Assembly: GCF_003001995.1 (NCBI RefSeq)
Contig: NZ_PVNB01000020.1
Coordinates: 1 to 64,000 of the forward strand
Length of the DNA: 64,000 bases
Direction: 5' to 3'
DNA from: Orenia metallireducens
Lineage (GTDB): Bacteria > Bacillota > Halanaerobiia > Halobacteroidales > Halobacteroidaceae
Shown one piece after another: positions 50,045 to 64,000 of the stretch; the first letter of the stretch is position 1; each line of letters begins with the position of its first letter. The notes under the pieces were generated by a model. That model was not told the origin of the DNA. It saw nothing but the letters and a program-made list of their open reading frames with translations, and did not search any database. Both the position numbers and the translations under genes were made by a program.

Positions 50045-50350
50045 ATGAGTGAAGAAGTTGAAATTCAAGGATGTGATTCTCGTAGAGGTAATTCTCGCAG
50101 GGGTGGTTCTTGTAGAGATGATTTAGTTAGGTTATTAAATAAAATTAAAGATACTAGTGAAGAAGTAACTATTATTATCCAATCTGGTGAAGGTTGTTGT
50201 GAAATAACAGGATGTATCTGTGAAATTGATGAGTGCTTTGTAGTATTAATTGATAGTAATCATGTATGTGTAAGAAGCTATATTTTATTAGATAAGATCT
50301 GTGCTATAGTCCATCCAGCAAAGGGTTGTAAACACAGACCTAGAGATTAG
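50045..50350 (+). CDS. Cysteine-rich LSm/SH3-like small protein, member 2
   Basis: A 101-residue protein. An N-terminal extension with a duplicated RRGNS/RRGGS stretch precedes the family domain: CRDDLVRLLNKIKDTSEE, IIIQSGEGCCEITGCICEID, CFVVLIDS and RSYILLDKICAIVHPAKGC. Promoter, coding region and end (CKHRPRD) closely match member 4, showing a recent duplication around member 3. The ribosome site is AAAGGAGGG. Confidence 0.8.
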   Translation: MSEEVEIQGCDSRRGNSRRGGSCRDDLVRLLNKIKDTSEEVTIIIQSGEGCCEITGCICEIDECFVVLIDSNHVCVRSYILLDKICAIVHPAKGCKHRPRD

Positions 50351-50407
50351 GTGGATTATTTCTTATTATTAAAAAGAGAAATTGATAAAATCTAATATTT
50401 ACTTTGA

Positions 50408-50439
50408 AGAGATAAGAGTTTCTTATCTCTTCTTTTTTT
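50408..50439 (+). terminator. Terminator after member 2
   Basis: AGAGATAAGA and TCTTATCTCT arms around GTT are followed by TCTTTTTTT. The -35 region of the next promoter starts only two bases later. Confidence 0.88.
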
Positions 50440-50440
50440 A

Positions 50441-50468
50441 ACACATTTAAAGACAGAGTCATACTATA
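50441..50468 (+). promoter_or_regulatory. Sigma-K-like promoter before 50499
   Basis: AC, 17 bases, then CATACTATA, a full match to CATANNNTA. The start codon follows 31 bases later. Confidence 0.65.
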
Positions 50469-50498
50469 TAACAAATAAAGAAGAGGAGGAGGGATATT

Positions 50499-50762
50499 AT
50501 GGAGGAGATTAGATTGGAGGATTGTGGTTCTTGTATTAAGTCATTGAAGAAATTATTGAATAAGATCAAGGATACAAATGAAGAGGTTACTATTATTATC
50601 CAATCAGGAGAGGATTGTTGTGATTTTACAGGATGTATCTGTGAGATTAATGATTGCTTTTTAGTATTAGTAGATGGTGATAATATCTGTGTAAAGACTT
50701 ATATTCTATTAGATAAGATTTGTGCAGTTATTCATCCGGCAAAAGGTTGTCACAGATGCTAA
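50499..50762 (+). CDS. Cysteine-rich LSm/SH3-like small protein, member 3
   Basis: An 87-residue protein with eleven cysteines including a C-terminal CHRC. The N-terminus is shorter than in members 2 and 4 (CGSCIKSLKKLLNKIKDTN), and the core is IIIQSGEDCCDFTGCICEIN, CFLVLVDG and KTYILLDKICAVIHPAKGC. It is more diverged than members 2 and 4 are from each other. Confidence 0.8.
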   Translation: MEEIRLEDCGSCIKSLKKLLNKIKDTNEEVTIIIQSGEDCCDFTGCICEINDCFLVLVDGDNICVKTYILLDKICAVIHPAKGCHRC

Positions 50763-50796
50763 TAGTCATCTAAAGGTTTAGCAATTATTTTTATTA

Positions 50797-50824
50797 ACAT
50801 ATTCTGATATAGAGTCATAGTATG
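50797..50824 (+). promoter_or_regulatory. Sigma-K-like promoter before 50858
   Basis: AC, 17 bases, then CATAGTATG. Nearly the same sequence stands before member 2. Confidence 0.58.
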
Positions 50825-50857
50825 TATTAGTTTTAAATGAAAGGAGGGAGAAGAGAG

Positions 50858-51130
50858 ATGAGTGAAGTTGAAATTCAAGGGTATGATTCTTGTAGAGATG
50901 ATTTAGTTAGATTGTTAAATAAAATTAAAGATACTAATGAAGAAGTAACTATTATTATCCAATCTGGTGAAGGTTGTTGTGAAATAACAGGATGCATCTG
51001 CGAAATCGATGATTGCTTTTTAGTATTAATTGATAGTAATCATGTATGTGTAAGAACTTATATCTTATTAGATAAGATCTGTGCTATAGTTCATCCAGCA
51101 AGAGAGTGTAGACGTAGACCTAGAGATTAG
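50858..51130 (+). CDS. Cysteine-rich LSm/SH3-like small protein, member 4
   Basis: A 90-residue protein, beginning MSEVEIQGYDSCRDDLVRL and ending CRRRPRD. It matches member 2 without the Arg/Gly/Ser insert near the N-terminus. ATG 50858 is ten bases behind AAAGGAGG; the ATG at 50837 precedes that site. A long hairpin at 51140-51190 separates it from the next gene, which lacks a clear promoter of its own, so partial read-through is likely. Confidence 0.8.
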   Translation: MSEVEIQGYDSCRDDLVRLLNKIKDTNEEVTIIIQSGEGCCEITGCICEIDDCFLVLIDSNHVCVRTYILLDKICAIVHPARECRRRPRD

Positions 51131-51139
51131 ATAAATTGT

Positions 51140-51192
51140 TGTTAATATTAATCGGTTGGATAGCTTAAATTATCCAGCTGATTAATATTAAA
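51140..51192 (+). terminator. Long hairpin between member 4 and the 286-residue gene
   Basis: TTAATATTAATC and GATTAATATTAA form the outer stem and GGATA/TATCC the inner stem. There is no strong T-run, so it may be an attenuator or processing hairpin. Confidence 0.55.
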
Positions 51193-51216
51193 ATTTATTA
51201 GGAAGGAGGTCTAAAG

Positions 51217-52077
51217 ATGATAGATAGTGATTATGACTTGGAGCTGCTAGAACCGTTATTAGAAGAGCTGATAAATGAATTATTAAATCAGAAGAATCCA
51301 ATGGTAAGTAATCCTCCTACTCCTTCATTAAATGATTTCTCTCAGTTTGATATTTCCAATATTGATATTAGTGAGAAGGAGCTTGATAAATTATTAGACA
51401 TATTAAAAGAGATAAATTTGAAGTTGGAAGCTCAAGAAGCTAGAGAAAGGACAGGGGGTGAAAGAAGGGTGTCTAAAAGAGGAAGAAGTCAAGAAAACGA
51501 ATTTGAAAGAGAGTTAATACATAATTTAAAAGAAGAATTGAAAGCAGAGTTGAAAAATGAATTAAGAGAGGAGTTACTTAAGCAGAAAGAAGATGATATA
51601 TTTATTAATAATTATAATAATAGTGGTGATTCTTATATTTTTAAAGATGAGTTGGCTAAACATGCAGAGAACTTTGATTTTGTAGAATTAACTGTGATTA
51701 GTGGCTCAGACTGCTGTAAGATAGTTGGTATTTTATGCGAAGTTTATAGTGATTTTATAGTTTTAATAACTGAAGATAATAGTCGGATTAAGATATCAAT
51801 AAGTAAGATAGTATCAGTCAGATTGCGTAATGATGGAGGAAGACGAAATAGATATAGTGAAGATGATGATAATCTAGATTATGAGGTTAATAGCATCAAA
51901 TCAGATGATAACTTCTCTTCTAAAGAAGAGAATAAAGACAAGGAGATAGCAGCTAAAAAAGAAGAAGATTTAGCTGATAGTAGTTCAATAGAGGAGGAGC
52001 AAGAGGTAGAGGATGATGATATAGATTCAGATTCTGGGCAGAAATCTGAAATGGAAAGAAAATTAAAAGTCTTATAA
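51217..52077 (+). CDS. Large protein with coiled coil and a cysteine-poor copy of the LSm-like domain
   Basis: A 286-residue protein. An acidic Leu-rich N-terminus (about 1-75) leads to a basic patch RRVSKRGRSQ near 86. A coiled coil of ELKAELKNELREELLKQK type spans about 95-130, followed by a short INNYNNSGDS segment. The family domain (about 150-205) reads VISGSDCCKIVGILCEVYSDFIVLI, keeping CC and one further Cys. A highly acidic tail follows. It could be a scaffold joining the small cysteine-rich proteins. No signal peptide. The ribosome site GGAAGGAGG is strong. Confidence 0.72.
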   Translation: MIDSDYDLELLEPLLEELINELLNQKNPMVSNPPTPSLNDFSQFDISNIDISEKELDKLLDILKEINLKLEAQEARERTGGERRVSKRGRSQENEFERELIHNLKEELKAELKNELREELLKQKEDDIFINNYNNSGDSYIFKDELAKHAENFDFVELTVISGSDCCKIVGILCEVYSDFIVLITEDNSRIKISISKIVSVRLRNDGGRRNRYSEDDDNLDYEVNSIKSDDNFSSKEENKDKEIAAKKEEDLADSSSIEEEQEVEDDDIDSDSGQKSEMERKLKVL

Positions 52078-52090
52078 GAAAGGTTATTTT

Positions 52091-52128
52091 TAGAGAGATG
52101 TTAAAAGCAACTCTCTTTTTTTTGGTTA
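52091..52128 (+). terminator. Terminator after the 286-residue gene
   Basis: GAGAGATGTT and AACTCTC arms with a run of eight T behind. Confidence 0.75.
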
Positions 52129-52224
52129 TAAAGAATTGGATCAAGATTTCATATTGTGAATTATGAATAAATTTGTAATTTCATTATATTCTATATTTTT
52201 CAATTGTAAATTAGAGTTTAATAG

Positions 52225-52360
52225 GTATATTGCGACACTTTTTGAGTTTAAGTATAAGATTAAGTATAAGTCTAAGGATAGTTTAAGCAGTGTTTTTATG
52301 ATTTACTCAAACTTAATCTTAGCCTTATACTTAGTTGCAAAGTGTCGTAATATCTCTCTA
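52225..52360. repeat. MITE-like hairpin element, copy B
   Basis: 135 of 136 bases match copy A at 46765-46900. The ends ATATTGCGACACTTT and AAAGTGTCGTAATAT are inverted. The short reading frame across it (52163-52363) has no ribosome site and is not a gene. Confidence 0.9.
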
Positions 52361-52454
52361 TAAGGTCACACTAAAAGTTTATCATAAAGCTTACTAACTA
52401 TAAGACTATAGTTGTAATTATTTAAAAGAGATATTTTGGTTTCTTATTCTATTC

Positions 52455-52482
52455 ACAAATTATTGGGGTATTTCGTATTATA
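52455..52482 (+). promoter_or_regulatory. Sigma-K-like promoter before 52507
   Basis: AC, 17 bases, then CGTATTATA, one base off CATANNNTA. Confidence 0.5.
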
Positions 52483-52506
52483 ACTTAGGAAAGGAGGGTT
52501 GAATAG

Positions 52507-53352
52507 ATGAGTGGATTGATTGAAGGAAGTTATTGTAGTAAAGGACTGATAGAGCTGTTAGAGGATTTAAAGGTTGAAGCTGAGTTAGTTAGTATTATCA
52601 TTCAAGCTGGTGGAGGGTGCTGTAGGCATAGAGGATGTATCTGTGAGATAATTGATTGTGCCACAGTTGTATTGGTAGATGATAGAGTTAAAGGTAAAGG
52701 AAGATGTGAAAGAACCTATATACCAATTGATTGTATATGTGCTATTGTAGTTTTTGAAGAGGGTAAAAGGATGGGATATGAAGCTAGAGATGATTTAGAT
52801 AATTATAGCTTTCAAGATACAGATGAATTAAATAGAAAAGATAAAGTTGATACTCCACAAGAGGCAGCTTATGATGAAGATTATCAATATTATAATGAAG
52901 AGCCAGCTAATATTGGATGTAATGTATATGGATACGGAAGAAAGATCAGGATTAATGTAATGGGAAAAAGAACACTTTTATCGGTCAGTAAGGTCAATAT
53001 AACGGAGTTATCTATGGTAGTTCATGGTGAAAGGACCGATAATGAGAACTTCATTTATTACTTCCATAAAGATAATGTAGGAGAAAAGACCATAGAGCTA
53101 TTATTATCTCCGTCATCTGTAGGTAAAATTGATGATGTTATCTATAATGAGCAAATAGAAGAAGCTAAGATTATTGGTACTGCTCTTTTATATATCAATG
53201 AAGAAGATAGAGGAGAGTGTGAGTTTGAATTATCTGTAAAAGAAGATATGGCTACAATGAATATAATCTGTGATGGAGAGGAAGTAGAGAGCCATACAGA
53301 ACAACTGACTGGAGTCTGTAGCCCTGAACCTTTTAGTATTCAAATCTTTTGA
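52507..53352 (+). CDS. Two-domain protein with N-terminal cysteine-rich LSm-like domain
   Basis: A 281-residue protein. Residues 1-85 are a diverged family domain: CSKGLIELLEDLKVEAELV, IIIQAGGGCCRHRGCICEII, and RTYIPIDCICAIVVF. An acidic Tyr/Asp linker follows. From about 135 a beta-rich domain of roughly 145 residues (IRINVMGKRTLLSVSKVNIT ... GECEFELSVKED) has no family I can name. No signal peptide. It may anchor the cysteine-rich layer to another component. Confidence 0.75.
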   Translation: MSGLIEGSYCSKGLIELLEDLKVEAELVSIIIQAGGGCCRHRGCICEIIDCATVVLVDDRVKGKGRCERTYIPIDCICAIVVFEEGKRMGYEARDDLDNYSFQDTDELNRKDKVDTPQEAAYDEDYQYYNEEPANIGCNVYGYGRKIRINVMGKRTLLSVSKVNITELSMVVHGERTDNENFIYYFHKDNVGEKTIELLLSPSSVGKIDDVIYNEQIEEAKIIGTALLYINEEDRGECEFELSVKEDMATMNIICDGEEVESHTEQLTGVCSPEPFSIQIF

Positions 53353-53493: not shown

Positions 53494-53521
53494 TACCAAA
53501 TAATAAAAAGGAGGAATGTTA

Positions 53522-54553
53522 ATGAGTCCGATTGATATTGACATTGATTTAGATACTTTAATTGCAGCGATATCAGAGTCTGTAGCTGAATCCGTAGCAG
53601 CAGCCTTAGCAGCAGCAGATGCAGCAGCAGATGCAGACGTAGAAGCAGATACAGAGGTGGAATTAGATGCCGATACAGACGTGGATGCAGATGTAGGGTT
53701 GGATGCTGATGCAGACGTGGACGCAGATGTAGGGTTAGATGCTGATGCAGACGTAGATGCAGATGTAGGGTTAGATGCTGATGCAGACGTAGATGCAGAT
53801 GTAGGGTTAGATGCTGATGCAGATATAGATGCTAATGTAGATGCTAATGCAGACGTAGATGCTGAGGTAGAAGTAGAAGCAGAAAGTGAGAGTGAATCTG
53901 AGTCAGAAGCTGAAGCAGAAAGTGAGAGTGAATCTGAGTCAGAAGCTGAAGCAGAAAGTGAGAGTGAGTCTGAATCAGAAGCAGATAGTGAAAGTGATTC
54001 AGAATCTGATGCTGATAGTGATTCAGATAGTGATGCTTGTGCTGATGCTCATTCAGATAGTGATTCCGATAGTGATTCTTGTTCTGATAGTGATGCCGAT
54101 GCCGATGCTGATGCCGATGCTGATGCCAGAGGCATAGGAGTAGGAATTGGAGTAGCTGAAGCAGAAAGTGAAAGTGAGTCTGAATCAGAATCTGAAGCAG
54201 AAAGTGAAAGTGAAAGTGAATCAGAGTCAGAAGCAGAAAGTGAAAGTGAAAGTGAAAGTGAATCAGAGTCAGAAGCAGAAAGTGAAAGTGAAAGTGAATC
54301 AGAGTCAGAAGCAGATGCAGATGCAGATAGTGAGAGTGATTCAGATGCAAATGCTGACTCCAATTCTACAGCTACAGCTACAGCTGAAGTTGAAGGTCCT
54401 GGAGACTGTGAACAAACTGCTCAAATTAACCAATCTAATAAACAACCACAAGCTTGTGTAAATACTGATGGAAATGTAACTATAAATCAAGCTAATGAAG
54501 AGATTGAGCAAGAGAATGAAGTTGAAGATTATGAGGATGATGAAGAAGTTTGA
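53522..54553 (+). CDS. Acidic Asp/Ala and Ser/Glu repeat protein with INQS C-terminus
   Basis: A 343-residue, extremely acidic protein. After about 50 residues come four 12-residue repeats of [12 protein letters not shown] type, then blocks of [12 protein letters not shown] type, an SD-rich stretch with single Cys residues, a short [13 protein letters not shown] break near 203, and further SE blocks. The C-terminus (about 290-343) differs: it has two Cys and the motif [11 protein letters not shown] ... [10 protein letters not shown], shared with the next gene. No signal peptide. Repeat proteins of this kind often form extended, hydrated surface layers; that role is inferred. ATG 53522 follows AAAAGGAGG; ATG 53516 is too close. 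Confidence 0.8.
53675..53818 (+). repeat. Four tandem 36-base in-frame repeats
   Basis: Four copies of a 36-base unit lie at 53675, 53711, 53747 and 53783, each encoding a [12 protein letters not shown]-type block. Copies 3 and 4 are identical at the DNA level, showing recent expansion. Confidence 0.9.
53879..54330 (+). repeat. Ser/Glu-coding repeat array
   Basis: 36-base units starting GCAGAAAGTGAGAGTGAATC repeat at 53879, 53915 and partly 53951. After an Asp/Ser stretch, related units resume at about 54158. All are in frame. Antisense and shifted open frames across the array are low-complexity shadows. Confidence 0.85.
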
Positions 54554-56297: not shown

Positions 56298-56801
56298 GTG
56301 TTTAAAATCAAATGGATTGGAGCCATGGTTCTTGTCTTTCTCATGGTCTTTGCTGGGGTAGCAATGGCAGCCAATACTACTACTCAAGATGCTACAATTA
56401 CTGTAGAAGCAATTAATGAAGTATCAGTATCTGCTGGAACAATAAGTATCACAATTAATGCAGCCAATGCTAGTGTAACGGCTGGGGATAGTTCCTTTAC
56501 TGTGACAGATACCAATACCACAATGTCTTATACTACAAATGAAGCTAGTAAGAAGATTACAGCAGCTATTGATGCAGATTATGCTGCTGGAATTACCCTT
56601 CAAGTCAACGTAGCATCTACTTCGGCTACTTCAGCAGGAGATGTTACCCTCTCAACTACAGCAGCAGATGTAATAACTGGATTAGGTAATGCTGCTGATT
56701 CAGCAGAGACTATCACCTATACCGCTACTTCTACCACAAGTGTTGCACCAAATGGTGGTGAGACCCATACTGTAACCTTTACCCTAACAGATACTATATA
56801 A
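56298..56801 (+). CDS. Secreted pilin-like subunit 1
   Basis: A 167-residue protein. The signal peptide (residues 1-25) ends in VAMA, cleaved before ANTTTQ. The mature part is rich in Thr, Ser and Ala, has no cysteine, and is all beta in appearance. It ends in HTVTFTLTDTI, an alternating C-terminal strand of the kind seen in chaperone-usher pilins. A chaperone-like and an usher-like gene follow downstream. GTG start has AAAGGAGGTGA. I see no clear sigma-K box here. Confidence 0.75.
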   Translation: MFKIKWIGAMVLVFLMVFAGVAMAANTTTQDATITVEAINEVSVSAGTISITINAANASVTAGDSSFTVTDTNTTMSYTTNEASKKITAAIDADYAAGITLQVNVASTSATSAGDVTLSTTAADVITGLGNAADSAETITYTATSTTSVAPNGGETHTVTFTLTDTI

Positions 56802-56824
56802 AGTTAAAACTTAAAGGTGATAGG

Positions 56825-56858
56825 AGAGATCAAGAGGGGACTTATCTCTCTTGGTCTT
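56825..56858 (+). terminator. Hairpin after subunit 1
   Basis: GATCAAGAG and CTCTTGGTC arms (one wobble) are followed by TTAATTTCT. It would separate subunit 1 from the next operon. Confidence 0.65.
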
Positions 56859-56884
56859 AATTTCTATATAACAATTTACCTTTC

Positions 56885-57020
56885 TATGGATAAATTGCAA
56901 TACTTATTAGATCTAAGTTCAAGCATAAGTCTAAGTAAATATGAGAATAGTGTTTTTATGTTTTTTTTAAGCTTAAACTTAATTTCAGACTTATGATTAA
57001 AGTGTTGCAATATCACTCTA
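56885..57020. repeat. Degenerate MITE-like hairpin element, copy C
   Basis: The ends ATTGCAATACTT and AAAGTGTTGCAATATCACTC and the inner block AGTGTTTTTATG match copies A and B with many changes. The total length, about 136 bases, is conserved. It lies between subunit 1 and subunit 2. Confidence 0.75.
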
Positions 57021-57130
57021 TTATATTGCTTATTCTTATTAGCTCAAAATATTGATATGAGATGTATTTATAATAAATATTTTAGACTCTGTTCTTAAGA
57101 AAGATTGTTAATTAGGATAGGAGGAGTTTC

Positions 57131-57622
57131 ATGAAGAATAATTTCTTTGGGAAATATTTAATATTTGCTCTATTGATTATAACTTTTTTAGTTCTTGTTT
57201 ATCCTCAAAGGGCTGAGGCAACAGATATCAGTGTATCTGGTAGCTGGTCAGAAACAATTAATGCTGATGACTTAATCGATGGTGCAGGAAGTGATTTGCT
57301 AAGTACTTATCAAAATAGTGGGGGAGATATTTCTTTAACCCTTAGTAATGGTAGTAGTAATTGGCGAGTTGATGTTAAACGAAGTGATACAATCTGGTCT
57401 AGTAATTTTAGTTTGGGAGTCAGGCGTGTTTCTAGTGGCAGTGGAGGAACAGTAAGTGGTGGTACGACTTATCTAACTACTAGAACTATTGATTCAGAAT
57501 TTTTTACAGGATCAGGTAGCCCTAGTGGAATTGATTTACAACTTAGGCTCAGTGGTGTCTCTATTGCTATCCCTGTTGATATCTACAGTACTACAATCAC
57601 TTATACAGTGGTTGACATTTAA
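57131..57622 (+). CDS. Secreted pilin-like subunit 2
   Basis: A 163-residue protein. The signal peptide ends near AEA, cleaved before TDISVSG. The mature part is Ser/Gly/Thr-rich, cysteine-free and beta-like (SGSWSETINADD, GGDISLTLSNGSSNWRVDV). It ends in YSTTITYTVVDI, parallel to the end of subunit 1. It is followed after 20 bases by the chaperone-like gene, so subunit, chaperone and usher-like genes form one operon. Ribosome site ATAGGAGGAG. Confidence 0.75.
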   Translation: MKNNFFGKYLIFALLIITFLVLVYPQRAEATDISVSGSWSETINADDLIDGAGSDLLSTYQNSGGDISLTLSNGSSNWRVDVKRSDTIWSSNFSLGVRRVSSGSGGTVSGGTTYLTTRTIDSEFFTGSGSPSGIDLQLRLSGVSIAIPVDIYSTTITYTVVDI

Positions 57623-57642
57623 AAGAGAGGATGTGAATTATA

Positions 57643-58497
57643 TTGTGTTGGAATTTGCTTAGAAATCTATGTATAGTAGCACTTTTTATTATGATATCTT
57701 TATCTTTTAGCATTAAAACAGCCTATGCTAATATAAGCTTGATAAGCCAAATGACTCAGAGTTTTGATGTAATAGAGGGAGAAAGCTATCAAGGTTTATT
57801 AAAACTTTATAATAATGGTGATCAAGTCCAAGATGTCCGTATTTATCAAACAGATTACCGCTTTGATGCTGAAGGACATTCTTTTTATGAGAAAGCTAGC
57901 ACCTTAGCCCGTTCAAATGCTAACTGGATTGAAATTAATAATTCAATAGTAAGTGTTCCACCCAAAGATAGTATCAATCTTCTTTATAAGGTAATCGTTC
58001 CAGAGGATAAGAAACTTGTTGGGACCTATTGGAGTATGATTATGGTAGAGCCACTTCCTATAAGAGATTCTAGAGGGTCTGCTAATTCTTTAATGGAAAA
58101 AGAGCAAGATGTCAAAATTGGAGTAAAACAGAGCTTTCGTTATGGGGTACAGATTGTAACAAACGTTGGTGATGATGGGAAGTATAAACTAAATTTCACT
58201 AATTCAAAGCTGAGATATGATGAGAAGAGAGATGGATATATCTTTCAAGTGGATTTAATAAATAAGGGAGAATATTGGCTAAGTCCTATGGTGTGGATGG
58301 AGATCTATGATGATTATGGTAGTCAAGTTGGTCGATTTAAGGGGAAGCAGTTACGAATTTATCCAGATACTTCTATCAGACAACAGATTAGAGTGGCTAA
58401 ACTAAGAGCAGGTACTTATCAGGTGCTTTTAATAGCTGATAACCAAGATGATAATATCTTTGGAATTCGATATACCTTAAAGGTAACTGAGCCTTAA
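57643..58497 (+). CDS. PapD-like periplasmic chaperone
   Basis: A 284-residue protein. The signal peptide ends in AYA before NISLI. An N-terminal immunoglobulin-like domain has FDVIEGESYQGLLKLYNNGD, WIEINNSIVSVPPKDSINLL and VPEDKKLVGTYWSMI, the order seen in pilus chaperones and in DUF916-type proteins. A second beta domain follows from about 165 (FRYGVQIVTNVGD). There is no C-terminal membrane anchor, unlike DUF916 proteins of monoderms. TTG start is assumed; a nearby ribosome site is AGAGAGG. Functional role is inferred from context. Confidence 0.72.
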   Translation: MCWNLLRNLCIVALFIMISLSFSIKTAYANISLISQMTQSFDVIEGESYQGLLKLYNNGDQVQDVRIYQTDYRFDAEGHSFYEKASTLARSNANWIEINNSIVSVPPKDSINLLYKVIVPEDKKLVGTYWSMIMVEPLPIRDSRGSANSLMEKEQDVKIGVKQSFRYGVQIVTNVGDDGKYKLNFTNSKLRYDEKRDGYIFQVDLINKGEYWLSPMVWMEIYDDYGSQVGRFKGKQLRIYPDTSIRQQIRVAKLRAGTYQVLLIADNQDDNIFGIRYTLKVTEP

Positions 58498-58513
58498 TTA
58501 GGAGGCTATACCT

Positions 58514-61165
58514 ATGGAGAATAAATTTATTTTGATAATCTCAATCATGTTCATATTGGCTAATATGATTTCAATTGTATCAGCCCAAGAATCCCCCTTG
58601 TTGATTGAAGTATTAACTCCCTCTATTGAAAGCTTACCAGGAGAACCAGTCACTTTATTATTTAGATTAACCAATATAGGAGAAGAAGAATTATCGTTTC
58701 TTCCCCAAGTAGAGCTTCCCGATAGGTGGGAGCTTTTAGTACCAATTGAATCAGTTGAAATTGCTCCAAAGGACTCTAAAGTTATCTTATTATCGATTAA
58801 AACTCCTACTGAGCTTAGGGCTGGTGACTACTCAATTCCTGTTTTTTTAAAAGGAAAGAATCAAGTTCAATTCTCCAAGTTTGAATTTAGAGTGTCAGTA
58901 CCTATAGTAAAAGAGCTTAAGGTTATCCCACTTAATGCTCCCCAATATACCTTAGCTCAGCCTTATACTGCAAAATTTTTGGTACAAAATACAGGTAATA
59001 CTCCACAGGATATTAACTTAACTCTAAAAGAGAACCTAGATATTTTCAGTAGAATTGAGCCTAACTCTGTTTATCTTGATGCTGGAGATTCTATTATTAT
59101 CAGGGTTAAAGCTGATGTTCCTAAAGATATTACAGAATCAGCTATCCACCGATTGCAGCTTATTGCTCAAAATAAAGAGGATGCTAAGGTGAAGGATATT
59201 GCTAAGGTTTCGGTTGAGATTATTTCTATAATTTATTCTAAAGAAGAGTTGTATCATACTCTTCCTGTAGAGATGACATTTAGTAATGAAGATACTTTTG
59301 ATTCAAATCAAATGGAATTAAGATTAAAAGGAAGTGGGCAGTTATCAGATAGAGATTCAGGAAAGCTATCCTTAGATATCAATAAAAAAAGCCAATCTAT
59401 TAAATATACACATCCTGATTTCTTTATAGCAGTTGGACATCAGAATTTCTATCTTTCTCCCCTTACAGAAGATGGTGACAATGGTTTTGGGATTGATTTT
59501 AAGACTATGAATAGAAGGTGGAAGTGGAATCTAAATCGTTATAAGAATAGTGATGGTGACAATAGGCTAGGAGCAAGTCTTGCTTATCAATTGAATCAGG
59601 ACTCCAATCTATCATTACAATTATTAACTCAACCAGAATTAGGAGACCTTTTAAGTTTACGAAGTAATCTTTCTCCAACTAAGAACTTTGGTGTTGATTT
59701 AGAACATGGAAGGCAGATAGAATCATCTGCTGAAGATTCATCTAGTGCATCAAGGTTGAAAGCTAGTCTTTCTAATGAGTTTTTATATACTAATCTTAAA
59801 TGGGAGAGAAAGGATATAGGTTATCGAGGGATAGATAGTAATCGAAGAAAGGTTAATTTGCATGGTGAAATTTATTTTTTTAATCCACTCCGTCTTAATT
59901 TAAATTTTATAGATTATATCAAATATAAAGAGAAAGATACAACTATTTATCACGATAGAAATTTTAATATAGCTCTGACTAAGAGTTTAGAAAAAAATTA
60001 TTGGAATTTTAAATATAATTATTCAGATAGCTTAGATTTAGAAGAGTTAGAAAGAATCGATCAATATGGCCAATCTATCTATCTTACAAATAAGAGATAT
60101 TTGAGTAAAGAGCGTTGGCTCTATCAAAGGATAGGAGCCAAGAAAAGCTTTGATAGAAGGAATAATGAAAGGGATATATTAGCTCTCTATGATTTGAATT
60201 ATCACATTCCATATAGAGAAGATAGTTTAGAGCGTTATTTAGAGATAGCAGTACCATTAAATAGTAACTCTAAAAAAGAGCTTGGTTTTGGTTTCCGGCG
60301 TGCTTATAAGATTAATGATTATCTTAAATTATATTTAAAGATGAAGGTAGAAGATATTTTTAGTGAAAGATATTTGGTATCTGGAGAATGGGAATATAAA
60401 TCTTTGAATAAATGGAAGTTAACTGTTGAAAGTAGAGTTAGATGGTCACCCAAACTTGATAAGTCAGATTTTAAAATAAATGTTGCTTATAAAATTCCAT
60501 TTAATCTGCGGTTAGGTCATCGTTCTGATATTGGTCAGCTTTCAGGATGTTTTTTAGATGAAAGTGGAAATGGGATTTCTGATATATTAGTACACTTAGA
60601 TGGCTTAACGGTACTTACAGAAAGTGATGGTTACTTTGAATTTCCTGTTGTTGCTACGGGAGTCCATTATCTTACTGTGCAATCAGATAAGCTGGGGGCA
60701 AATGACCTAATAATTCCTAGAATTCCTTGGAAGGTAAAGATTGATTCTGGTCAGAAGATAGAACAGAATTTTAGGGTTATGAAAGGGGCAAGTCTAAAGG
60801 GGAGACTAAAGATGATTAAAGCAACAGAATCTACTTTAGAAGCAGGTGGAGTTTTTGGTCAAGGGTCTGAGAAAGATGATATGAATTTTGTTAAAGATAT
60901 AATGATTGAGCTTGTTAATGAAAAGCAAAGCTATCGCTATATAACTGATAAAGAAGGAAGATTTCACTTTGATTATTTAGTGCCAGGAGAGTGGACACTT
61001 CGAGTTTATAGAAATGGCTTACCAAAGTCATATAAAATTGAACCCCAACAGAGAAAAGTAAGACTAGAATCTGCTGAAAATAGAACTATAGAAATTAAGA
61101 TTATAGCAAATTTACGACCGATTAATATGATAGAGGGAAAAATACTGGAGGTTGAATCTGATTAA
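58514..61165 (+). CDS. Usher-like outer-membrane beta-barrel protein
   Basis: An 883-residue protein. The signal peptide ends near VSAQ. Residues 25-240 hold two NEW3-like beta-sandwich domains (LPGEPVTLLFRLTNIGEEEL; AQPYTAKFLVQNTGNTPQDI). From about 250 to 670 are alternating amphipathic strands rich in Tyr, Asn, Lys and Arg, as in an outer-membrane barrel (DLNYHIPYREDSLERYLEIA). The C-terminus has two carboxypeptidase-regulatory-like domains (GCFLDESGNGISDILVHLDG; YRYITDKEGRFHFDYLVPGE). Barrel followed by such domains is the plan of pilus ushers. It belongs to the operon of subunit 2 and the chaperone. The size and N-terminal domains differ from classical ushers. Confidence 0.72.
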   Translation: MENKFILIISIMFILANMISIVSAQESPLLIEVLTPSIESLPGEPVTLLFRLTNIGEEELSFLPQVELPDRWELLVPIESVEIAPKDSKVILLSIKTPTELRAGDYSIPVFLKGKNQVQFSKFEFRVSVPIVKELKVIPLNAPQYTLAQPYTAKFLVQNTGNTPQDINLTLKENLDIFSRIEPNSVYLDAGDSIIIRVKADVPKDITESAIHRLQLIAQNKEDAKVKDIAKVSVEIISIIYSKEELYHTLPVEMTFSNEDTFDSNQMELRLKGSGQLSDRDSGKLSLDINKKSQSIKYTHPDFFIAVGHQNFYLSPLTEDGDNGFGIDFKTMNRRWKWNLNRYKNSDGDNRLGASLAYQLNQDSNLSLQLLTQPELGDLLSLRSNLSPTKNFGVDLEHGRQIESSAEDSSSASRLKASLSNEFLYTNLKWERKDIGYRGIDSNRRKVNLHGEIYFFNPLRLNLNFIDYIKYKEKDTTIYHDRNFNIALTKSLEKNYWNFKYNYSDSLDLEELERIDQYGQSIYLTNKRYLSKERWLYQRIGAKKSFDRRNNERDILALYDLNYHIPYREDSLERYLEIAVPLNSNSKKELGFGFRRAYKINDYLKLYLKMKVEDIFSERYLVSGEWEYKSLNKWKLTVESRVRWSPKLDKSDFKINVAYKIPFNLRLGHRSDIGQLSGCFLDESGNGISDILVHLDGLTVLTESDGYFEFPVVATGVHYLTVQSDKLGANDLIIPRIPWKVKIDSGQKIEQNFRVMKGASLKGRLKMIKATESTLEAGGVFGQGSEKDDMNFVKDIMIELVNEKQSYRYITDKEGRFHFDYLVPGEWTLRVYRNGLPKSYKIEPQQRKVRLESAENRTIEIKIIANLRPINMIEGKILEVESD

Positions 61166-61272: not shown

Positions 61273-62112
61273 ATGAATTTAAAAAATAATCTAATTAAGA
61301 TATTACTGTTATTATTAATTATTATTTTTTTCACCTTACTAACTGTAATAGTTATAGATTATCTATTTGAAGGTAGGGTAGATAACTCAGCTTCAATTAC
61401 AGATAAGAGTGATTATGATAATATCAACCAGTATCTTAAGGATAGCAAATATAATAATCTAAAAGGTTTAAATAAAGCTCCTAAGTTAAAGAATCTAAAT
61501 AAGTTGCGGACAGCTCTATTATTATATTTAGAAGACTACAATCACTTACCAGATAAATTAGAAGATTTAGTAGGGGAATATCTAATTAATATTCCTGTAG
61601 AAACTATATCAAATAGTAATAGAGTTACCAATACTTTAGACTTTTCAGGTGGATGGTACTATAACTCTCAGATTATGCAAAGTGAGCTTAATAAGATTAT
61701 TGAGAAGAGTTTACAAGCAAATATAAAGCATAATTCCAGTTTAGATACAAGCTTTTATCCAATCCAAATTTTAATAGAGAGAAGCAAACAGAGATTATAT
61801 ATAATTCAGAAGGAGAAGATAATAAAAAGTTACCCTATTGCCATAGGAGGGGCTGATAGTCCAACTCCAACTGGAGAGTTTAGAATTAAAAGTAAATATA
61901 TTTTGAGCAGTGAACAAGAAGAAGTATATGGTAAGTACTGGATAGGGATTGACTTGTGGACTAAAGGAGGAGGATATGGAATTCATGCAGCTACCGACTC
62001 TAAAATAGATATTACTAAACAGTCTTCAAGAGGCTGTATCAGGATGAAAAAGGATGATTTAAAGGAACTATATGATTTAGTTCCCCTTAGGACGAAGTTA
62101 GTGATAAAGTAA
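61273..62112 (+). CDS. Membrane-anchored L,D-transpeptidase with GspG-like middle segment
   Basis: A 279-residue protein. A membrane helix spans residues 8-30. A segment around 75-130 (LRTALLLYLEDYNHLPDKLE, GEYLINIP, GGWYYN) resembles the periplasmic part of GspG-type pseudopilins. The C-terminal YkuD domain (about 165-279) has PTPTGEFRIKSK, YGIHAATDS and the catalytic SSRGCIRM. L,D-transpeptidases cross-link peptidoglycan or attach proteins to it. With a sigma-K-like promoter it may act on spore cortex or coat linkage; that is inference. Confidence 0.88.
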   Translation: MNLKNNLIKILLLLLIIIFFTLLTVIVIDYLFEGRVDNSASITDKSDYDNINQYLKDSKYNNLKGLNKAPKLKNLNKLRTALLLYLEDYNHLPDKLEDLVGEYLINIPVETISNSNRVTNTLDFSGGWYYNSQIMQSELNKIIEKSLQANIKHNSSLDTSFYPIQILIERSKQRLYIIQKEKIIKSYPIAIGGADSPTPTGEFRIKSKYILSSEQEEVYGKYWIGIDLWTKGGGYGIHAATDSKIDITKQSSRGCIRMKKDDLKELYDLVPLRTKLVIK

Positions 62113-63399: not shown

Positions 63400-64000
63400 A
63401 TGGCAATTAATTTTAAAGAAGAACAAGTAAGAGTAGAATATGTCATTGGAGAAGATACAGTTAGAGAATCGATTACTAAAGAGGTTACAATACCTGTTAC
63501 AGAAAAACCAGATATAGAGAGAATTTTAGAAGTGAATACAAAAGTTGAATCCACTGAGGTGACTGTTGAAGAGGGTGGAGTAACAATCGATGGGGTAATT
63601 GAAGTAGGTGTTATGTATGTAGCTGATACCACTGAAGGTGATCAACCAGTACATTATTTCCATGGGGAGCTGACCTTTAGCAACTTTGTTGATATTCCTG
63701 AAGCAGAGGATTATATGAGTGCCTATGTTGATGTTGATATTTTAAGATCTAGCTATGATTTTATTGATGAAAGAACTGTAGAAGTAACTGTTGTTCTTAA
63801 AAAGTTTGCTAAAGTCTTTGATTATCGACAGATGACCATTATTACCGATGTAACAGGGATTAGAGAGGAACTAGTAGAGAAGGAATTATTAAGAATTGAG
63901 AATGTAGTTGGAGAGAATACTTATCAAGTAGTAGTAGAAGGAATTGTTGATGTTCCTACAGTTAAACCAGCAATTGAAAGAGTTTTAAAGGTTGAAGGAG
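63400..64000 (+). CDS. SPOCS-domain (DUF3794) spore protein, 5' part
   Basis: The reading frame stays open to the window end, giving the first 200 residues. INFKEEQVRVEYVIGEDTVR, KEVTIPVTEKPDIERILEVN, VTIDGVIEVGVMYVA and YMSAYVDVDILRSSYDFI are the repeating strands of a DUF3794/SPOCS domain. A second unit starts near 165 (IENVVGENTYQVVVEG, PTVKPAIERVLKVEG). The SipL spore coat morphogen of Clostridioides carries such domains with a LysM end; the C-terminus of this one is not visible. ATG follows AGAGGAGGA. It supports a sporulation role for this region. Confidence 0.85.
   Translation, partial: MAINFKEEQVRVEYVIGEDTVRESITKEVTIPVTEKPDIERILEVNTKVESTEVTVEEGGVTIDGVIEVGVMYVADTTEGDQPVHYFHGELTFSNFVDIPEAEDYMSAYVDVDILRSSYDFIDERTVEVTVVLKKFAKVFDYRQMTIITDVTGIREELVEKELLRIENVVGENTYQVVVEGIVDVPTVKPAIERVLKVEG

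Follow-up and report, generated by a model that had tools for sequence, protein, structure and literature searches.

Few bacterial surface machines have been studied as thoroughly as chaperone–usher pili. They have been placed in Proteobacteria, Cyanobacteria and Deinococcus-Thermus, the reports from the latter two groups concerning archaic chaperone–usher systems (PMC4654587). A secretion-system survey in which Halanaerobiales were covered does not include them (PMC4793230). Here, we describe a set of four genes in Orenia metallireducens (Bacillota; Halanaerobiia), located in a 64,000-nucleotide stretch of contig NZ_PVNB01000020.1 (positions 1 to 64,000, forward strand; hereafter the window). 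The four open reading frames (ORFs) lie on one strand at 56298–61165, with the coordinates first given in a preliminary description of the sequence, and encode two small secreted proteins (subunits 1 and 2), a periplasmic chaperone and an usher-like outer-membrane protein of 883 amino acids (aa) (Table 1). We conclude that these genes probably constitute a chaperone–usher-like system for export and assembly, of a distinct type without a plug. An earlier description of the four-gene system was not found in the openly searchable literature, subscription papers and preprints being outside the reach of that search.

Searches of Pfam and NCBIfam with all four proteins returned no family that names the system, and the only clearly significant Pfam match among them was CarboxypepD_reg at the C-terminus of the 883-aa protein. 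Neither subunit matched Pfam. Sequence searches of the PDB with single window proteins gave no match, and searches with subunit profiles gave chance matches only. The host genome encodes four Omp85 proteins, and the organism therefore has an outer membrane.

Predicted structures of the barrel protein and the chaperone

The AlphaFold2 model of the 883-aa protein (predicted local distance difference test (pLDDT) score 89.2; alignment of 62 sequences) consists of two N-terminal beta-sandwich domains at residues 29–236, a single barrel of about 24–26 strands and two C-terminal beta-sandwich domains, in that order. The barrel is predicted with high confidence at residues ~247–669, where the preliminary description had placed one (250–670), and the flanking domains that it had proposed, a NEW3 pair before the barrel and immunoglobulin (Ig)-like domains after it, were recovered in the model. 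In agreement, NEW3 (NPCBM_assoc) was detected in 33 of 49 homologues and CarboxypepD_reg in 47 of them, the latter matching two stretches of the 883-aa protein itself. The two modelled C-terminal Ig-like domains are positioned as in ushers. When the model was compared with the PDB by Foldseek, FimD took ranks 1–8 and 10 (E down to 1e-14) and PapC rank 12, with LptD structures behind (1e-9 to 1e-7). Conservation within the barrel marks the family stretch 303–333 (G308(D)..Y.LSPLTE..YGRG), including G308(D), LSPLTE (315–320) and G326. This stretch precedes a hairpin at 333–336 that by position would correspond to the site of the FimD plug.

Several results weigh against reading this protein as an usher. 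No insertion of at least 30 residues was present inside the barrel in any of 62 homologues (0/62), and the family is thus without a plug; the canonical usher N-terminal domain was not found either, two NEW3/Ig domains standing in its place, as had been proposed. The preliminary description had pointed to a 24-stranded barrel with a plug, of which the large barrel holds, DSSP giving 26 strand segments against 24 strands in ushers, and the plug does not. Neither the 883-aa protein nor its homologues matched the Pfam Usher family (PF00577), and the Usher profile found nothing above its cut-off in 59 genomes of the class. A profile comparison of the 883-aa family with E. coli ushers was weak (E=0.001, probability 21%). 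Template modelling (TM) scores in the Foldseek matches were low (0.3–0.43), which may reflect another domain arrangement or another barrel size, and LptD structures also matched at 1e-9. Because plug, N-terminal domain and profile were each looked for and not found, we do not file the protein in the Usher family; we place the system in a new plugless chaperone–usher-like class.

The LptD matches, together with a count of 26 strand segments as in LptD, would also fit an LptD-like or other exporter of lipid or polysaccharide whose neighbours are coincidental. We give this reading almost no credence: the 883-aa protein has no LptD-type N-terminal domain, and an operon with chaperone and subunits has been kept in dozens of phylogenetically scattered loci, which largely refutes it.

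The chaperone model (pLDDT 93.4) has two Ig-like domains, at residues 31–137 and 167–281, with a low-confidence or disordered F1–G1 loop at ~140–165 that is followed by a long strand. In the model, this layout of loop and long strand is the arrangement of PapD-type chaperones. Foldseek ranked WxLIP first (8e-14), followed by CfaA (7e-10), YadV (7e-9), CsuC (1e-8) and FimC (4e-8); SfaE, Caf1M, DraB, CupB2 and FaeE were also matched, and the top 50 were mostly chaperones of chaperone–usher systems. The proposed PapD-like chaperone therefore has the two-Ig fold, although the single closest solved structure is WxLIP and not PapD. Eleven positions were invariant in 77 of 77 chaperones (R90 S91 N92 W95, G127 Y129 W130 S131, R166, P241 and D266). 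The G1 region (strand at ~157–171) alternates between polar and hydrophobic residues (hydrophobic at 159, 161, 165, 167, 169 and 171), and its spacing I-x-Q-V-I-R-Y matches I-x-S-R-I-K-L of the K-12 chaperone consensus. In classical chaperones, a basic pair anchors the subunit (PMC4654587). Judged by spacing in the consensus, R166 may be the equivalent of the classical Lys anchor. The chaperone thus has a candidate donor strand, of the G1 type, alternating and with an Arg that never varies. Neither of the two outcomes that the preliminary description had named as refuting, a missing barrel in 250–670 and a chaperone without a donor-strand groove, arose.

Other chaperone results argue against a PapD-type identity. 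Unrelated or generic tandem-Ig proteins also scored in Foldseek, TM-scores were modest (0.5–0.6), and PapD_N (PF00345) matched neither the chaperone nor its family nor anything elsewhere in the genome. Alignment of the window chaperones with E. coli K-12 chaperones by hhalign covered the signal peptide and first strand region only. The Pfam matches of the chaperone were confined to sub-threshold WxLIP domains (WxLIP_PGBD in 14 of 77 members, best 4e-4), and its closest solved sequence match was EfmWxLIP1 (1e-3).

These matches raise the alternative of a WxL/WxLIP-like surface complex, in which the chaperone stays on the subunits in the final structure and is not released at the barrel. EfmWxLIP1 is the closest solved relative in both structure and sequence, and WxLIP of monoderm Firmicutes is predicted to insert a strand that completes WxL (PMC10599100). 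However, WxLIP is associated with membrane and wall, carries a transmembrane helix and lacks a partner that forms an outer-membrane barrel, whereas here the chaperone gene is always followed by a barrel gene and the chaperone itself, which lies below the Pfam WxLIP cut-off, ends in the model without a C-terminal transmembrane helix or membrane anchor. We therefore consider such a complex very unlikely and favour the chaperone–usher-like system.

Compared with classical systems (FimC/FimD and PapD/PapC), the locus shares clustered genes for subunits, chaperone and a large barrel, a two-Ig periplasmic chaperone with a G1 basic residue at the anchor spacing, and a barrel protein that has soluble domains at both ends and FimD as its best structural match. 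It differs in that the barrel lacks a plug, that NEW3 domains stand where ushers have their N-terminal domain, that the C-terminal domains are of the CarboxypepD type and that no window protein matches Pfam Usher or PapD_N significantly. With archaic and alternative systems (CsuC/CsuD, CfaA and EcpB), it has the chaperone fold in common. An invariant F1-strand Arg marks archaic and alternative chaperones (Arg89 of CsuC; PMC4654587), whereas the F1 strand of the window chaperone (GTYWSMxMVE) is without it, and the barrel is again without a plug.

Subunits and proposed assembly

Both subunits carry a signal peptide and no cysteine. Subunit 1 ends in the strand HTVTFTLTDTI (end FTLTDTI) and subunit 2, whose gene is immediately 5′ of the chaperone gene, in YSTTITYTVVDI (end TYTVVDI). 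The matching terminal strands, pointed out in the preliminary description, were borne out across homologous loci: an alternating hydrophobic strand occupies the last 14 residues in 91% of 146 subunits, compared with 4.7% in shuffles (maximum 9.6%) and 9% in internal windows. The C-terminal strand is therefore not due to chance. Searches with the mature sequence of either window subunit joined 145 of the 146 proteins into one superfamily, and no shuffled or reversed decoy scored below 1e-3.

The subunits differ at their N-termini. In the alignment of its homologues, mature subunit 1 begins with TTTQDATITVEAINEVSVS, and subunit 1 types have an alternating stretch at the start (TATQTVTFEVQAI) that, from its sequence pattern, could be a donor strand. 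The N-terminal segment TTTQDATITVEAI is a candidate for filling the groove of a neighbouring subunit. Subunit 2 types have little N-terminal extension. Subunit 1 is the probable repeating subunit of a fibre; subunit 2, single and with a short N-terminus, might be a tip, initiating or terminating subunit.

A working model can be proposed from these features. Given their signal peptides, subunits and chaperone would cross the inner membrane by Sec. The chaperone would then grip a subunit by its conserved C-terminal strand, with the G1 strand completing the subunit fold and the invariant R166, perhaps with R90, anchoring the subunit C-terminus. Judging from their position, the NEW3 domains, on the periplasmic side of the 883-aa protein, would be the docking site of the loaded chaperone. 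By analogy with FimD, donor-strand exchange, in which subunit 1 would use its N-terminal extension, would polymerise the subunits, and these would exit through the barrel while the C-terminal Ig-like domains steady them. Subunit 1 would repeat, and subunit 2 may sit at the tip or end.

What the data show directly are the sequence, the gene order, the predicted folds and their conservation; binding, polymerisation, secretion and fibres, and the part played by each subunit, are inferred. In an alternative arrangement, the 883-aa protein would serve as an anchor or porin in the outer membrane and display the subunits on the surface, the chaperone would only keep them soluble and no polymer would form. 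The missing plug and canonical N-terminal domain fit such an anchor, and so do the porin matches of the barrel profile (OmpG-like, 0.007; Porin_4 in four homologues). However, Foldseek places ushers above porins and LptD, and one to five homologous small subunits per locus, with donor-strand-like termini, suggest assembly. On balance an anchor or porin is unlikely, and export and assembly through the barrel remains our preferred interpretation.

Gene order and distribution across phyla

When 84,980 species genomes were searched with the chaperone alignment, 128 relatives were obtained, 80 of which were analysed as loci. Nearly all complete loci among them have the order of one to five small secreted subunits, a chaperone of ~270 aa and a protein of ~830–1200 aa, and the barrel gene or its start is directly 3′ of the chaperone gene in 78 of 80. 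The chaperone–usher-like operon proposed earlier is thus conserved in gene order in other phyla. By record labels, the 80 loci fall into ~20 phyla: Bacillota, Pseudomonadota, Myxococcota, Thermodesulfobacteriota, Bacteroidota, Ignavibacteriota, Planctomycetota, Verrucomicrobiota, Armatimonadota, Elusimicrobiota, Synergistota, Spirochaetota, Acidobacteriota, Gemmatimonadota, Atribacterota, Zixibacteria, Bipolaricaulota and others. The suggestion of a lineage particular to diderm Firmicutes was accordingly dropped, as relatives occur in many phyla, Proteobacteria included.

Many of these loci come from metagenome bins, in which contigs can be misplaced. Isolate genomes of Thiocapsa, Thiohalocapsa and Thiococcus (Chromatiaceae) and of Deinococcus deserti also carry the system, which is therefore real outside bins; in D. 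deserti the set is annotated as hypothetical, FimB/Mfa2 and carboxypeptidase regulatory-like proteins. Within the class of O. metallireducens, five genomes hold six homologous chaperone genes between them, and a barrel gene adjoins on the contig in three of those loci, besides the window. In a chaperone tree with long branches and a rough bootstrap, the window grouped with a Bacillota bin and two genomes of its own class, and other genomes of the class fell elsewhere. This scatter points to a patchy history. In G024 (L028:1847–3124 and L029:1494–2774), the cargo differs: a secreted, glycine-rich protein of 425 aa (Gly_rich_2, 3e-23) and one of 189 aa are encoded ahead of the chaperone.

Genomic setting, related operons and significance

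Table 1. Coordinates of the four-gene locus, its parts and chaperone–secretin operons of the class
Feature	Position	Strand	Size and basis
Subunit 1	56298..56801	+	167 aa; ORF; homologues in other phyla, E down to 3e-31; alignment
Terminator-like hairpin, between subunits 1 and 2	56826..56858	+	consensus scan; weak
Subunit 2	57131..57622	+	163 aa; ORF; homologues, E down to 4e-43; alignment
Periplasmic chaperone	57643..58497	+	284 aa, TTG start; AlphaFold2, Foldseek, conservation in 77 sequences
Usher-like outer-membrane protein, whole	58514..61165	+	883 aa; AlphaFold2, Foldseek FimD, gene order
N-terminal NEW3/Ig-like pair (residues ~29-236)	58598..59221	+	AlphaFold2 strands; NPCBM_assoc in 33/49 homologues
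Predicted outer-membrane beta barrel (residues ~247-669)	59252..60520	+	DSSP, conservation, OmpG-like profile 0.007
C-terminal CarboxypepD-regulatory/transthyretin-like Ig domains (residues ~673-883)	60530..61162	+	Pfam PF13620 5e-11, AlphaFold2
Chaperone–secretin operons	L032:2786-7713, L033:4409-9393, L030:3499-8604		secretin PF00263 1e-33 to 7e-38

The gaps between subunit 2 and the chaperone gene (20 nt) and between the chaperone and barrel genes (16 nt) are consistent with an operon. Subunits 1 and 2 are separated by 330 bases, within which a terminator-like hairpin lies. A consensus scan found six such hairpins in the region against 2.8 ± 1.5 expected, a weak excess; it is possible that this one is a partial terminator and that subunit 1 is made in excess. 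Directly 3′ of the barrel gene, a YkuD L,D-transpeptidase gene (61273–62112) encodes an enzyme that could cross-link the wall near the system. Upstream, the window encodes a 345-aa serine-rich, extremely acidic low-complexity protein with DADADVDAD and SESESE repeats (53516–54553), beside cysteine-rich proteins that resemble spore-coat proteins (50045–53352). The presence of a SPOCS/SipL-domain protein at 63400 is in keeping with sporulation, and the organism is apparently spore-forming.

A second operon in the same genome (L012:1952–9139, on G000:C4) encodes a BTAD-domain regulator, secreted proteins of 291 and 263 aa, a 274-aa chaperone and a 1012-aa barrel protein, and similar sets are present in L014, L040 and L015. 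Its chaperone is homologous to that of the window (E=1e-15 by profile comparison; 8e-8 in a direct profile search), as is its barrel protein (E=3e-20). Unlike the window protein, the L012 barrel protein contains a segment resembling a plug, and its N-terminal domain is of the Cu_amine_oxidN1 type. The protein aligns with E. coli ushers/FimD over the plug and the initial part of the barrel (E=0.018), and the L012 chaperone can be aligned with those of E. coli over the N-terminal domain (4e-5). Through these homologies to both sides, the window system is tied to classical ushers by an intermediate, each step being distant.

Two sub-threshold Usher matches (G000:C16:35293, 0.0015; G000:C4:62716, 0.03) were set aside: these proteins of 840–860 aa start with FDWKxYETDDFIVFY, belong to a different family and are probably other large barrels. 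A third type in the class places a double WxLIP/PapD-like chaperone of ~510 aa beside a true secretin (PF00263) and small secreted proteins (Table 1).

On a broader view, which we put forward tentatively and hold with somewhat less than even confidence, the locus may represent a widespread plugless chaperone–usher-type class in diderms (~20 phyla), with a chaperone that stands between PapD and WxLIP. Donor-strand chaperoning would then be ancient and common to monoderms and diderms, the plug and the N-terminal domain of ushers being later or optional additions. If true, the known range of fibre assembly would be widened to ~20 phyla by a set that is unnamed in Pfam and NCBIfam. The system would also make it possible to test whether ushers require a plug, and would offer a route to a common origin of PapD-type chaperones and WxLIP.

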